A stretch of 37,479 bases of DNA from a virus. The stretch covers positions 1-37,479 of the IMG/VR virus record IMGVR_UViG_3300044612_000828; one strand, written 5' to 3'. The translations under genes were made by a program, and so were the position numbers. Positions 2,267-33,592 of the stretch are shown piece by piece. The first letter of the stretch is position 1. Each line of letters starts with the position of its first letter. Below the pieces are notes generated by a model, which was not told the DNA's origin, did no database searches, and was given only the letters and a program-made list of their open reading frames with translations.

Positions 2267-3322
2267 ATGGCTATTCTTACTGAACCCCAACTTAGCGGTC
2301 GCGGTCTACGCGAAGACTTGATGGACATGATTGCGCTCGTTGACGCAAAGGACACTCCTTTTACGTCGATGGCTCGCAAAGGCAGCAAGCCCGGAAATAT
2401 GTACTTCCGCTGGCAGTCTGACTCGCTTCCTACCCCTCAGGTAGGTGGTGTGGTGGACGGCACGGACGTTTCCAGCTACGACAACTACGTCGTTGGCTAC
2501 CGCGCTGAACTCGCTAACTACGCACAGGTGTTCCGCCGTGCAGTGCGCGTGTCCCGCCTCACTCAGGACATCGCTGATGTCGCAGGTGTGCGTGACGAAC
2601 TGGCTGACAACGTCAGCAAGGGCATCACTGGCATCAAGCGTGACATGGAAGCGACCTTCACGTCGAACCAGCTCTCGCAGCAGGACAACGGCACGACTCA
2701 GGCCTACCGCACCGCTGGTGTGCAGACCTGGATCAGCACCGCTGGTACTGGAACGCCAACTCCCGGAGACATCCCTTCGATCTTCCGTACTCCTTCGACC
2801 TCGATCCTCACTGGTGCATCTAGCGGGTTGACGGACGCAGGTGTGCAGGGACTTTTGAAGTCGATCTTCGACCAGACTGGTCACTATACCAGCTTCGACG
2901 CCATCGTCGGAACTGACCTGAAGCGTGCTTTCACCGGCCTGCTTGGCACGACGGCTCTGACCACGGTCAGCAACTCCAGCAATACGCTTGCTGCTGGTGC
3001 TACCAAGGTGCAGACCTTCCAGCGTGACGCTGCGGCTGACACCTTCATCCAGAGCTTGGACGTGTTCCAAGGTGACTTCGGAACGGTGCGTCTGCATCCT
3101 TCCACGTTCATCGGAACTGTGTCCGGCACGACCTGGACGCCAACTCCTTATAAAGGTCTTGTGCTTGACATGAACCTCATCGAGGTTCGCTACGGCGGAA
3201 ACGTCGCTAACGTCACTGCACTGCCAGATTACGGTGGTGGCCCTGCTCGCTTGATCGAAGCAGTTGCTGGCTTGGTTGTCGGCAACCCGCTCGGCCTCGG
3301 GAAATTCGACTACTCCTCCTAG
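2267..3322 (+). CDS. Major capsid protein, SU10/DUF5309-like
   Basis: A 351-residue protein that probably forms the HK97-fold shell. Recognisable family-like elements are an N-terminal LREDLMDMIALVDAKDTPF stretch (residues 14-32), a central VRVSRLTQDIADVAGV segment and KRDMEATF, a layout I associate with the SU10/DUF5309 coat family. The gene shows the most uniform, C-ending codon choice in the window, as expected for the most abundant virion protein. The 5' leader is A/T-rich (about 35 nt after the scaffold stop) and has no Shine-Dalgarno sequence. It is followed by two copies of an RNA-like repeat. A large antisense ORF inside it is a shadow. Confidence 0.88.
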   Translation: MAILTEPQLSGRGLREDLMDMIALVDAKDTPFTSMARKGSKPGNMYFRWQSDSLPTPQVGGVVDGTDVSSYDNYVVGYRAELANYAQVFRRAVRVSRLTQDIADVAGVRDELADNVSKGITGIKRDMEATFTSNQLSQQDNGTTQAYRTAGVQTWISTAGTGTPTPGDIPSIFRTPSTSILTGASSGLTDAGVQGLLKSIFDQTGHYTSFDAIVGTDLKRAFTGLLGTTALTTVSNSSNTLAAGATKVQTFQRDAAADTFIQSLDVFQGDFGTVRLHPSTFIGTVSGTTWTPTPYKGLVLDMNLIEVRYGGNVANVTALPDYGGGPARLIEAVAGLVVGNPLGLGKFDYSS

Positions 3323-3338
3323 TAGTTGTTGATCGGTG

Positions 3339-3375
3339 ACACCTACCTAGTGGTGTGACTAGCTGGAGAGACAGC
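3339..3375 (+). ncRNA. Structured RNA-like element, copy 1
   Basis: A two-hairpin element 16 nt after the capsid stop. Stem 1 is ACACC (3339-3343) with GGTGT (3352-3356) and an 8-nt loop. After GAC comes stem 2, GCTG (3362-3365) with CAGC (3372-3375) enclosing the hexaloop GAGAGA. The primary consensus shared with the other copies is GGYGTGAC, 4-5 nt, GGAGAGAC. The stems differ between copies but remain paired, which argues for selection on RNA structure. Confidence 0.55.
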
Positions 3376-3409
3376 CTCGTCGGCAACGCGACATGAAGCG
3401 TTGTGGGGA

Positions 3410-3448
3410 ACGCACCTCTTAGTGGCGTGACACCTCGGAGAGACGGGG
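3410..3448 (+). ncRNA. Structured RNA-like element, copy 2
   Basis: Stem 1 is ACGC (3410-3413) with GCGT (3425-3428). GAC follows, then stem 2, CCTCG (3433-3437) with CGGGG (3444-3448, one G-T pair) around the same GAGAGA hexaloop. It lies 11 nt before the ATG at 3460. Between copies 1 and 2 a further hairpin is possible (GCGTT 3398-3402 with AACGC 3409-3413, competing with stem 1). The element probably sits in the 5' leader of the next gene; its role is unknown. Confidence 0.55.
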
Positions 3449-3459
3449 ACAATTTTACT

Positions 3460-3804
3460 ATGATTACAATCCCTACTGACCTAGTGCCGCAGCTTGAGCA
3501 AGAATTGCGTAAAGGCTGGCAGAAGAACCGTATTGAAGCGCAGGTTCAGGCCAAGCAAAACGAAAAGATCAATAAGCAGAAGCACAGGTCAATAGAAGGA
3601 TTGGGTCAGCTTACCGCAAGGATTCCTCCTACTGCGTATCACTTTTGGGGACAAAAGCTCGGATACGAGTGCTGGAACGATAAAGCGTTCATGGATGAGT
3701 TTTTGCGTGACAATCCCGAGTGTCGAGTCAATAGTGGAGGGACTAAAGAAATCCACGTTGGCTGGACACCAACCAATGTTCGTTCCCGTACCGTTTATCA
3801 ATGA
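3460..3804 (+). CDS. Small hypothetical virion-region protein
   Basis: A 114-residue basic protein. The N-terminal half is a long charged helix (ELRKGWQKNRIEAQVQAKQ), and the C-terminal half has aromatic and Gly residues (TAYHFWGQKLGYECW). The start at ATG 3460 is chosen because the in-frame upstream ATG at 3403 would run through the two structured repeats. There is no Shine-Dalgarno sequence; the nearest purine run is inside the GAGAGA hairpin, 17 nt away. It overlaps the next gene by ATGA. It may be a capsid or connector accessory protein from its position, but no family was recognised. Confidence 0.65.
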   Translation: MITIPTDLVPQLEQELRKGWQKNRIEAQVQAKQNEKINKQKHRSIEGLGQLTARIPPTAYHFWGQKLGYECWNDKAFMDEFLRDNPECRVNSGGTKEIHVGWTPTNVRSRTVYQ

Positions 3805-25194: not shown

Positions 25195-25367
25195 AGGCAC
25201 GCGAAATTGCGACACTGTGCGGCGTCACGCTTCAGACTATCCTGAAGTGGGCACGCGAGAACAAGATCCCTCACCACAGGATCAGCGCACGCTGCCTGCG
25301 ATTTGATGTGGCTGAGGTTAACGCTTGGTTACAGGCCAAACGCGATGCCAATAAACAGCAGGGCTAA
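25188..25367 (+). CDS. Small helix-turn-helix protein (HTH_17/excisionase-type)
   Basis: A 59-residue protein whose ATG overlaps the stop of the ssDNA-binding gene. The sequence VKAREIATLCGVTLQTILKW with ARENKIPHHRISARCLRFDV and AEVNAWLQAK is the typical excisionase/MerR-like winged HTH (HTH_17) layout. No integrase is seen in the window, so a role as regulator or replication accessory is at least as likely as excision. It overlaps the resolvase start by 23 bases. Confidence 0.8.
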   Translation: MVKAREIATLCGVTLQTILKWARENKIPHHRISARCLRFDVAEVNAWLQAKRDANKQQG

Positions 25368-25728
25368 AGGCTGCCGAGGAGAGCGCATGTGGCGCGACGA
25401 ACTTCGGGCTGCTGGCTTCACCGCAAGGCGTGGCCAGCAGTTCGCCGGAGGGACGGACTCGCCAGATGTGATCTGTGAGGAGCTTGCAGCACTACACCAA
25501 GAGGTGAAGTTCGTCGAGAACCTCAACCTTATTAAGGCTACCGAACAGGCCGAGCGTGACGGTGCTGGTAAGGCGTGGATCGTGGCTCACAAGAAGAACC
25601 GTACTCCTTGGCTAGTGACGATGAGCAGCGAACTGTTCTTCAAGTTACTTAGGGATGGCATGGATATCTTTGCGACACCTGCCCCGCTGGTTTCCGGCGA
25701 GCAAGGACTGAGAGATCTCGGTCGATGA
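25345..25728 (+). CDS. Holliday-junction resolvase-like nuclease (PD-(D/E)XK)
   Basis: A 127-residue protein starting at ATG 25345 inside the HTH gene. The motifs are SRAKGCRGERMWRDELRAAG (with the first acidic residue), RRGQQFAGGTDSPDVICEEL (Asp), and HQEVKFVENLNL (E-x-K). This order matches the Hjc-like phage resolvase type, which cleaves four-way DNA junctions during recombination and packaging. A more upstream start at 25303 would overlap the HTH gene further and lacks conserved sequence. Size fits small resolvases. Confidence 0.8.
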   Translation: MPINSRAKGCRGERMWRDELRAAGFTARRGQQFAGGTDSPDVICEELAALHQEVKFVENLNLIKATEQAERDGAGKAWIVAHKKNRTPWLVTMSSELFFKLLRDGMDIFATPAPLVSGEQGLRDLGR

Positions 25729-25771
25729 GTGGTGAGTGTGACTGTCCCGCACGAATACTAGTACAGATCGA

Positions 25772-25811
25772 ACGCCAGTTGCCAGTCAGGCGTGACACTG
25801 GGAGAGACTAG
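25772..25811 (+). ncRNA. Structured RNA-like element, copy 3
   Basis: Stem 1 is ACGCC (25772-25776) with GGCGT (25789-25793) and a 12-nt loop. GAC follows, then stem 2, CTGG (25798-25801) with CTAG (25808-25811, one G-T pair), enclosing GAGAGA. It shares GGYGTGAC and GGAGAGAC with the two copies after the capsid gene, more than 22 kb away, while both stems carry different but compatible bases. It ends 18 nt before the next ATG (25830). Confidence 0.55.
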
Positions 25812-25829
25812 ACCAACTAAAATAAAAAT

Positions 25830-26144
25830 ATGCCAAAGGTTAAATTACATACGAAGACATTTGAAGACTTTGCCACATTAACAGTTTCAATTGGAACAAA
25901 CTGTCCACAGGGCGGGGATTCCGGGCATGGCGGAAGAACTGTTTTGCGTTTGCTGTGTGATAGTGGAGACATGAATGTCAGAACGGACACATCTCCAGAA
26001 CTACAGCATGTGGAATCTATTGAAATTGTTTTTGGAGGAGACGCAGAGTGCCGGGTTTTTGCAGAGGCACTAGAGTTTGCCTTAACAACGCTTCATAAGG
26101 TTTGGCAAAAGCGAGAGACGACAAACGAGGAAGAGTTCGAATAA
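25830..26144 (+). CDS. Hypothetical protein downstream of RNA-like element
   Basis: A 104-residue protein beginning after an A-rich leader (AAATAAAAAT). It has beta-like segments (DFATLTVSIGTNCPQGG, GGRTVLRLLCD, VESIEIVFGG) and a helical, charged end (ALTTLHKVWQKRE). It is A/T-richer than its neighbours. There is no Shine-Dalgarno sequence. No family was recognised. It is, with the gene at 3460, one of the two genes preceded by the repeated RNA-like element. Confidence 0.6.
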   Translation: MPKVKLHTKTFEDFATLTVSIGTNCPQGGDSGHGGRTVLRLLCDSGDMNVRTDTSPELQHVESIEIVFGGDAECRVFAEALEFALTTLHKVWQKRETTNEEEFE

Positions 26145-32474: not shown

Positions 32475-32716
32475 CACCAGAACACGCGATCGCTACGGAG
32501 ATGCTACTCCTTCAGGCCGAGGAGGAAATTTCAAGATTGAAATCCGAAATTCAAATTTTGAAAAAGGAACGTGAAATTGAAGCTGACATCCAGCTTCGCA
32601 TCGCGCTCAAAGCAGATCATTACTACATGCAGCTTCAGGCCATCAAGGAGAGCGCATTCGGTGAGATTCACGGTATCACGGCGGAAGATCTGTCGTTTAT
32701 GAGCGAACGAGAATGA
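32471..32716 (+). CDS. Coiled-coil protein carrying an A/T-rich repeat
   Basis: An 81-residue protein with a coiled-coil region (LQAEEEISRLKSEIQILKKE) that is encoded by a GAAATCCGAAATT-type repeat also found in another gene 0.8 kb downstream. The C-terminal part (AIKESAFGEIHGITAEDLSF) looks distinct. It overlaps both neighbours by ATGA. Function unknown. Confidence 0.55.
   Translation: MTPEHAIATEMLLLQAEEEISRLKSEIQILKKEREIEADIQLRIALKADHYYMQLQAIKESAFGEIHGITAEDLSFMSERE
32525..32582 (+). repeat. A/T-rich GAAATT-type repeat block 1
   Basis: Degenerate repeats of the form GAAATTTCAA, TGAAATCCGAAATTCAAA and TGAAATTGAA, in-frame within the coiled-coil gene. A 12-bp core AAATCCGAAATT is identical to one in repeat block 2. 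Confidence 0.6.
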
Positions 32717-33297
32717 GCGACAACCCCAAGCGCAAGAAGCGCAACGCAGTCTATCGGTCACCAGAGTCCCGTGCTAGGCAACTAGCCGGGCTTTCTGGCG
32801 TGAAGATAGAGAAGCATGTGCCAGGCGTAGTCATGGAGAAGGTGAACGGACAGGGCGCCTTGGCCGGCATTCCACCAGAGATACAGAAGAAGGTGCTCGA
32901 TCTATTCGTGACAGGGCAGCACAGCCGAGCCATCGCCATGCAGCTCGGTATCAGCGAGCGGAGTGTGGACGAGATCAAGGTGTCGGCGCTGGACATGGAT
33001 AGCCAGTTCAGGAATGCGTACTTCAACACGAACTTGAAGGCCAAGCTACAATCGGTGATCGACGGCGCTGCCCAGCGGGTCATGGAGCTTATGCCGGAGA
33101 TGAGCGCGAAGGACGCTGTGCTGGCCCTAGGGATCACGCTGGACAAGTATGCTAACCTAGAGAAGAACAAGGTCCCGGATCAGTTGCACCAACATGTGCA
33201 TCTGCACACGAACAACGACATCTCTGCCGCTTTCATGGCGGCCCTTAAGCCGCCGAAAGCCCCTGACGATCATGTTGGAACGATTGAAAACGAGTGA
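32713..33297 (+). CDS. Terminase small-subunit-like or DNA-binding HTH protein
   Basis: A 194-residue protein. The N-terminal 45 residues are basic (NPKRKKRNAVYRSPESRARQ). Residues about 55-95 (IPPEIQKKVLDLFVTGQHSR then AIAMQLGISERSVDEIKVSA) form a clear helix-turn-helix. A helical oligomerisation-like part follows, ending in a His-rich strand (HQHVHLHTNN). An HTH plus helical core resembles small terminase subunits, but a regulator is equally possible. No large terminase is nearby on the right side. Confidence 0.55.
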   Translation: MSDNPKRKKRNAVYRSPESRARQLAGLSGVKIEKHVPGVVMEKVNGQGALAGIPPEIQKKVLDLFVTGQHSRAIAMQLGISERSVDEIKVSALDMDSQFRNAYFNTNLKAKLQSVIDGAAQRVMELMPEMSAKDAVLALGITLDKYANLEKNKVPDQLHQHVHLHTNNDISAAFMAALKPPKAPDDHVGTIENE

Positions 33298-33301
33298 TGC
33301 G

Positions 33302-33592
33302 ATGGCCGGTCTACCTTGCAAATCAGACATTCAACTTCTAAATTTCAAGGTGGATTTCAAAGATCAAATTTCAAATTCCAAATCCGAAATTGAAAATCAA
33401 ATTTCAAATTTCAAAATCAAATCTCAAATTCAAAATTCAAATTTGGTTTTACCGAGCGGGATTGACCTAGCCAATGAGGTACACGACCTGCGCGATCTTA
33501 CCGAGCGGTATTGGCGCATCATCCAAGCGCAACACGTTCGGATCGCGTTGCTAGAGAGCGACTTGCAATGTGCCAGCACTGCGCAACGCTAG
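33302..33592 (+). CDS. Repeat-invaded hypothetical protein
   Basis: A 96-residue protein. The middle (about residues 12-45) is a low-complexity Lys/Asn/Gln/Ile/Ser segment encoded by an A/T-rich repeat (e.g. KSEIENQISNFKIKSQIQNS). The C-terminal part, ANEVHDLRDLTERYWRIIQA, is a normal charged helix. The repeat seems inserted into an otherwise small gene. The next gene starts within its end. Function unknown. Confidence 0.5.
   Translation: MAGLPCKSDIQLLNFKVDFKDQISNSKSEIENQISNFKIKSQIQNSNLVLPSGIDLANEVHDLRDLTERYWRIIQAQHVRIALLESDLQCASTAQR
33340..33446 (+). repeat. A/T-rich AAATTTCAAA repeat block 2
   Basis: About 105 bp of degenerate tandem repeats built on AAATTTCAAA, with the interruption AAATCCGAAATTGAAA. 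It shares the core AAATCCGAAATT with block 1. Such CGAAAT-type strings recall scattered repeats I know from Planctomycetes/Verrucomicrobia-type genomes, or it may be replication-related A/T-rich DNA. Confidence 0.75.

Follow-up and report, generated by a model that had tools for sequence, protein, structure and literature searches.

A short RNA element of two adjoining hairpins, present in three copies in the window (the whole stretch of viral DNA analysed, an IMG/VR virus record of 37,479 nt), recurs in phages whose hosts span about ten phyla, and the feature common to most of its places is that it ends right before the next unit of a longer transcript. The reading that we favour, though tentatively, is that it is a cis-acting RNA marking the 5′ boundary of that unit, most likely a processing element that would either cleave itself or be read by a nuclease. 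Since nothing in Rfam 15 matches the element, and since Mu-gpT-DE, HK022 put and, by their description, theta ribozymes are set apart from it, we class it as a new family among the cis-acting structured RNAs that phages carry.

Three copies of the element in the window

Re-reading of the sequence bore out the words, stems and position that the first-pass annotation had given for the studied element, copy 3: ACGCC (25772-25776), GGCGT (25789-25793), GAC and A, CTGG (25798-25801), GAGAGA and CTAG (25808-25811), with ATG 25830 starting 18 nt past its end. A scan of the whole window for GTGAC-N-GGAGAGAC, with a spacer N of 2-10, located the motif at 3355, 3427 and 25792, all on the + strand, where shuffles expect 0.00. 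A covariance model, termed R1 and built from 24 relatives with the window copies kept out, returned three convincing matches only, the next best scoring 9.4 bits; exactly three copies are what the genome-wide motif search first proposed as a check yields in the window. The copies and their neighbouring genes are as follows.

2267-3322, + strand: major capsid protein gene (SU10_MCP; PF17236, E 8e-44; phrog_1328), directly 5′ of copies 1 and 2
3335-3379, + strand: copy 1, behind the major capsid gene (R1 23.7 bits, E 4.3e-4; fold z-score -2.07)
3339-3343 with 3352-3356, + strand: P1 of copy 1, ACACC with GGTGT
3362-3365 with 3372-3375, + strand: P2 of copy 1, GCTG with CAGC; loop 3366-3371
3406-3451, + strand: copy 2, in tandem with copy 1 (R1 41.5 bits, E 4.8e-8)
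3410-3413 with 3425-3428, + strand: P1 of copy 2, ACGC with GCGT
3433-3437 with 3444-3448, + strand: P2 of copy 2, CCTCG with CGGGG; loop 3438-3443
3460-3804, + strand: gene after copies 1 and 2, its start kept in relatives (tblastn, array comparison)
25303-25728, + strand: RusA-like Holliday junction resolvase gene, 5′ of copy 3 (phrog_244, E 4e-16)
25675-25742, + strand: degenerate copy 4 (ACACCTGC ... AGTGGTGAGTGTGAC), without the GAGAGA hairpin (read from the sequence and compared with relatives L258 and L261)
25768-25814, + strand: copy 3, the studied element (R1 36.9 bits, E 5.1e-7)
25772-25776 with 25789-25793, + strand: P1 of copy 3; the MFE fold gives both P1 and P2
25794-25797, + strand: linker GACA of copy 3
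25798-25801 with 25808-25811, + strand: P2 of copy 3; loop GAGAGA 25802-25807
25830-26144, + strand: conserved ORF 3′ of copy 3 (tblastn, 96% and 91% identity in relatives)

Copy 2 ends 11 nt before ATG 3460, while copy 3 stands between the RusA-like resolvase gene and the conserved ORF, which is followed by a DnaB-like helicase gene. None of copies 1-3 was reported as an intrinsic terminator (GC-rich hairpin plus T run on the sense strand) by terminator scans of the window. The last stretch of the rusA reading frame is made up of the degenerate copy 4, which has an intact counterpart in relative L261, and the C-terminus of the window RusA thus seems to consist of one-time non-coding element sequence. 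The gene after copy 3 does lack a ribosome binding site, as originally pointed out, but this absence was rejected as a special mark of the element, since by our own count a Shine-Dalgarno word precedes only 5 of 42 likely window genes and its lack is ordinary in this phage. Leaders rich in A or T precede many gene starts in the window; together with the 5 of 42, this suggests a host that begins translation without Shine-Dalgarno pairing. Comparison of the first 24 kb revealed no near match to the window among 50,697 phage records. The region 32527-33450 (~32.5-33.4 kb) is occupied by AT-rich degenerate short repeats (AAATTTCAAATTC...).

Fold and covariation

The element displays two adjoining hairpins, P1 (ACRCC/GGYGU, with a variable tip) and P2 (with a GAGAGA loop), connected by a GAC(A) linker. 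The consensus, 5′ to 3′, comprises R-ACRCC, the tip, GGYGU, GAC, usually A, a P2 of 4-5 bp, GAGAGA, P2′ and usually A. The tip of P1 extends over ~4 to 60 nt and may contain one or two hairpins, and P2 may be of almost any sequence. When the search fixed just GYGTGAC and GGAGAGAC, P2 had at least four pairs in 158 of 209 distinct matches, a state for which we estimate a chance level of ~5% with the closing G-C given. The arms of P1 co-vary in the sequence-only set, a 3′ GCGT being accompanied by ACG in 96 matches and by ACA alone in 10, and a 3′ GTGT by ACA in 73 and by ACG alone in 2. An alignment of 114 model-fitted sequences has 98.7% of its cells paired, and both partners have changed in 8 of its 10 pairs; its covariation score of 0.401 compares with 0.136 for shuffles and no more than 0.087 for slid controls. 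As this alignment was fitted to the model, the figures from sequence alone are the safer guide. G-U pairing is frequent, and at one pair of P1 it takes the form of U-G in 21 of the 105 paired cells. Because both stems covary, G-U pairs included, the selected molecule is RNA, in agreement with the structured RNA that had been proposed from the window alone.

Outside the stems, conservation is confined to the R, the GAC(A) linker, the loop and, weakly, an A/AC behind P2. At least 120 viral contigs contained the pattern GYGTGACNGCYSGG-AGAGACSRGC, which carries the GAGAGA loop, and 31 contained the otherwise identical pattern with a GAAAGA loop (GGAAAGAC), while the one-base control with a GTGAGA loop (GGTGAGAC) was found in none; GAGAGTA, GAGAGCA and GAAGAGA are rarer loops. 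An additional pairing of P1 flanks with P2 flanks reached at best z 2.8 among 64 combinations and was not accepted as real. An extension of P1 past a bulged A is weakly supported in one subclass (z 2.8-3.6). Tandem copies gave no signal of avoiding identical P2 stems (3 of 29 the same, 10% expected).

Occurrence in phages and bacteria

Isolation of the three copies to this one phage, an outcome that the first-pass annotation had allowed for, is excluded by the presence of the element in at least 120 viral contigs. Annotated isolates that carry it include Morganella phage IME1369_02, Stenotrophomonas phages phiSHP3 and Pokken, Pseudomonas phages Itty13 and Medea1, coliphage mEp390, Klebsiella P7641, Acinetobacter Alexa, Cronobacter CS01, Planktothrix Pag-Yong1, Gordonia Sour, Vibrio 1.033.O, Aggregatibacter S1249, Sinorhizobium phiM9, Rhodobacter RcCWillis and EBPR podovirus 1. 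Bordetella MW2 contains a look-alike only, which R1 does not recognise.

The specific pattern was also identified in 49 bacterial contigs of about ten phyla, P1 and P2 being readable in the listed sequences. They include Pseudomonadota, Acidobacteria, Myxococcales and Polyangiaceae, Planctomycetota, Chloroflexi (Anaerolinea, Bellilinea), Cyanobacteria (Microcoleus, Oscillatoriales), Bacillota (Defluviitaleaceae), Spirochaetes (Treponema) and Chlorobiota. Individual genomes seldom carry the element, which under strict filters was present in 2 of the 149 genomes examined from one family. In a few bacterial copies, chiefly from Chloroflexi, the 5′ arm of P1 departs from ACRYC; five loci of Anaerolinea and Bellilinea contain near-identical repeats with a different P1 5′ arm. 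As its neighbours are mostly phage genes, the element is regarded as belonging to phages and prophages, with these few Chloroflexi copies lying beside genes that are not clearly of phage origin.

Genomic places and turnover of the arrays

Relatives of the window phage present two clusters of the element, one behind the capsid gene and one behind rusA. Among 33 sequences with capsid proteins at least 97% identical, the window included, the gap behind the capsid gene ranges from 70 to 342 nt, holds 0-3 recognised copies and occurs as 22 different sequences. Copies have been swapped as cassettes between phages with near-identical capsid genes, some joins falling inside the core, and the arrays turn over fast. 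Whatever the length of the array, its last copy in the window clade ends ~10-12 nt before the same ATG.

Over a broader set, the upstream gene belongs to a capsid family at 11 of 89 elements, compared with 1 of 89 random places in the same contigs, and to an SSB family at ~6 of 89, compared with none listed at random places; these counts include relatives, since the phrog_1328 hits share the window's capsid family and several of the phrog_1005 hits resemble one another at ~85% identity. The capsid genes that precede the element nevertheless come from different families, namely SU10-like, phrog_1005, Mu gpT and, in phiSHP3, cap_E. PF10124 (Mu-like gpT capsid) lies upstream of 2 of 74 elements, most being elsewhere. 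The element also stands at the head of early operons (mEp390, EBPR podovirus 1), ahead of terminase genes (CS01, Itty13) and in tRNA arrays, and in mEp390, P7641, CS01 and Medea1 it is part of long leaders of 100-435 nt to the first annotated gene. The element is thus found before genes, including at the start of operons, as the description of copy 3 as a gene leader had anticipated. The different contexts stressed in that description are likewise real, for the element recurs in several, but the place behind the capsid gene is not incidental, being preferred in unrelated phages with different capsid families, although a capsid-specific function there is not possible.

Association with tRNA genes

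A same-strand tRNA lies within 200 nt downstream of 18 of 143 elements in set 1 (1.7 expected) and 10 of 136 in set 2 (0.84 expected), and within 200 nt upstream of 9 (1.9 expected) and 6 (0.7 expected), respectively. Antisense tRNAs were absent within 200 nt upstream and downstream in both sets. Taken over the two sets, the tRNA neighbours are 43 sense and 0 antisense, with same-strand downstream tRNAs enriched ~10-fold. Because the tRNA neighbours are all sense, the transcribed strand of the element is fixed, and this strand bias suggests that the element is itself transcribed. When a same-strand tRNA lies within 400 nt downstream (34 elements), 26 elements end 2-12 nt before the mature tRNA 5′ end, and some are wedged between two tRNAs, filling the spacer of the array. 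The tRNAs preceded by an element are of many types, and tRNA-Met, with 9 of 23, is commoner among them than among all tRNAs of these contigs (33 of 264). At seven loci a phage tRNA-Met, mostly of initiator type by eye, stands directly behind the element.

The orientation relative to tRNAs bears on a DNA-level cassette or recombination site, attC-like, that merely resembles an RNA fold. The arrays shuffled between phages with near-identical capsid genes, with exchanges inside the core, would suit such a site, but we hold it to be very improbable: orientation follows tRNA transcription without exception, G-U pairs are common and no recombinase is consistently adjacent.

The tRNAs also weigh on the earlier proposal of an operator, at which an RNA-binding protein of host or phage would set the translation or transcript level of the next gene. 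Copies before different genes, and near start codons in the window clade, agree with it. However, many copies precede tRNAs, which are untranslated, no obvious protein common to the phages is encoded near the element, and the hosts represent about ten phyla, which makes one shared phage protein an unlikely common reader; unless the protein were a universal host one, the tRNAs and the host range would be left unexplained. We rate an operator as quite unlikely.

A third possibility is a structural insulator or 5′/3′ stabiliser, an uncut fold guarding the neighbouring RNAs (tRNA, start region or capsid message) from exonucleases or from misfolding with the sequence upstream. Both the tight placement 5′ of tRNAs and start regions and the placement behind abundant messages are in line with it, while the conserved loop and linker letters and the weak stems of 4-5 bp point instead to a specific tertiary fold or partner, and we regard such a role as somewhat unlikely.

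Comparison with known RNAs

Rfam 15 revealed no family at gathering score at the element, in the window or at 41 element-bearing loci, with just tRNAs and one suhB elsewhere; the latter is a suhB/mmgR sRNA (RF00519, 50.2 bits) at 3678-3757 of viral contig L011. Single copies compared with Rfam at E up to 10 gave irrelevant weak matches only, and an element-bearing Roseovarius locus gave nothing by cmscan. Searches of an open-access library gave nothing on the motif, although it may have been listed earlier as an unnamed candidate in surveys of phage or viral RNAs.

Mu-gpT-DE (RF03012) is a small orphan phage RNA of 53 model positions, the name of which places it downstream of the Mu-like major head gene gpT. 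The element is also located behind Mu-like gpT and other capsid genes, but in addition before tRNAs and in many other places. Identity with Mu-gpT-DE was rejected, the best score in 7 element-carrying records being 19.3 bits against a 49-bit cut-off, and the RF03012 model found no copy in 658 genomes searched more widely.

The put RNAs of lambdoid phages provide a second comparison. In HK022, putL and putR consist of two hairpins with a short linker and act in cis in phage operon leaders (PMC9378689), an arrangement that the element shares. Homology to put was rejected, as the put regions contain no GTGAC/GAGAGA core and R1 has no match in the HK022 genome. The element could nevertheless be an RNA-only processive antiterminator that works like put, the nascent two-hairpin RNA binding the elongating host RNA polymerase, which would then pass terminators or Rho sites in untranslated stretches. 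The long leaders of mEp390, P7641, CS01 and Medea1 fit antitermination better than processing. Also in its favour are the early-operon leaders just past the repressor region (mEp390, P7641, Medea1; operon start in EBPR podovirus 1), the copies before terminase genes, the long untranslated regions and tRNA arrays, the affiliation of mEp390 to HK022's subfamily and an RNA polymerase conserved across all hosts. In contrast, terminators are not enriched downstream of elements (5 of 112, versus 7 of 112 upstream and 5-8 antisense), antitermination needs neither the 2-12 nt spacing to tRNAs nor tandem arrays in mid-operon, and the sequence does not match put. We regard antitermination as somewhat unlikely.

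The boxB of lambda nut sites is likewise a small phage hairpin of operon leaders, its loop made of purines, and the N protein of the phage reads it along with boxA. The element differs in that no boxA-like word was seen beside it and its host range is far wider.

Theta ribozymes are small HDV-like phage RNAs tied to tRNAs, often tRNA-Met, and are situated mostly in non-coding stretches, in sense; the HDV-like fold takes the form of a nested double pseudoknot, and at suppressor-tRNA genes the ribozyme lies downstream (PMC10879173). The element resembles them in its link to tRNAs and in being mostly non-coding and sense. By their description it differs from them, comprising two simple hairpins just upstream of the tRNA; Rfam gave no HDV-like match, and the covarying fold, for pairs within the two-stem model, is that of two hairpins.

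Proposed processing at 5′ boundaries

Under the preferred reading of 5′-boundary processing, tailed phages would transcribe the element as a folded RNA that acts in cis, and within polycistronic or untranslated phage transcripts this RNA would mark the 5′ boundary of whatever functional unit comes next, be it a tRNA or an ORF together with its start region. The GNRA-like GAGAGA loop would let P2 pack against P1, and such packing would account for stems of fixed length and for a GAC linker that does not vary. The resulting compact core may direct a cut of the transcript at or beside the element, made either by the RNA itself or by a conserved nuclease that recognises it; capsid or SSB messages, tRNAs and downstream genes would then become separate RNAs. 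A single activity would thereby cover tRNAs, start regions and positions behind abundant messages, and, if self-sufficient, would need no host-specific factor, which could account for the spread over about ten phyla. The tRNA enrichment with its 2-12 nt spacing, the constant distance to the ATG, the capsid and SSB enrichment and the loop control all count in favour of this reading.

Against this reading, the Rfam searches matched no known ribozyme family to the element, and a cleavage site is not nameable from conservation since so few letters are conserved outside the stems. In its most specific form, the proposal would make the element a small self-cleaving ribozyme of a new class, common among tailed phages whose hosts belong to about ten phyla, cutting a few nt 5′ of tRNAs, start regions or other units and exchanged as tandem cassettes behind capsid genes; we hold this form to be somewhat unlikely.

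The much covariation, strict tRNA spacing, wide hosts and absence from Rfam point to an overlooked general step in phage gene expression, and the element may represent a previously unrecognised way for phages to divide up transcripts. Whether the element proved to be a ribozyme of a new class or a widespread antiterminator made of RNA alone, the result would be newsworthy. It also gives access to the question of how phages balance capsid protein against its operon neighbours, and it is short and present in culturable phages (coliphage mEp390, Stenotrophomonas phage phiSHP3, Pseudomonas phage Itty13).

Other structured segments near elements and tRNAs

A second conserved structured segment (AACCAC..CUGGUAUGUAGG..AUUGGAAUGUAGC..AAAUCCUG) was observed between tRNA and element in two phages, at L006 (5290-5400) and L036 (upstream of 10763). 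Long near-perfect hairpins with similar arms (AAAGCGCAUUC ... GAGUGCGCUUU and the like) are present at L274 (2530-2610), L275 (2080-2150) and L277 (2540-2600), and also at L281 (2525-2605) and L282 (3110-3185), near an element or tRNA in phages of different hosts. These recurring hairpins are possibly a second recurrent phage RNA.
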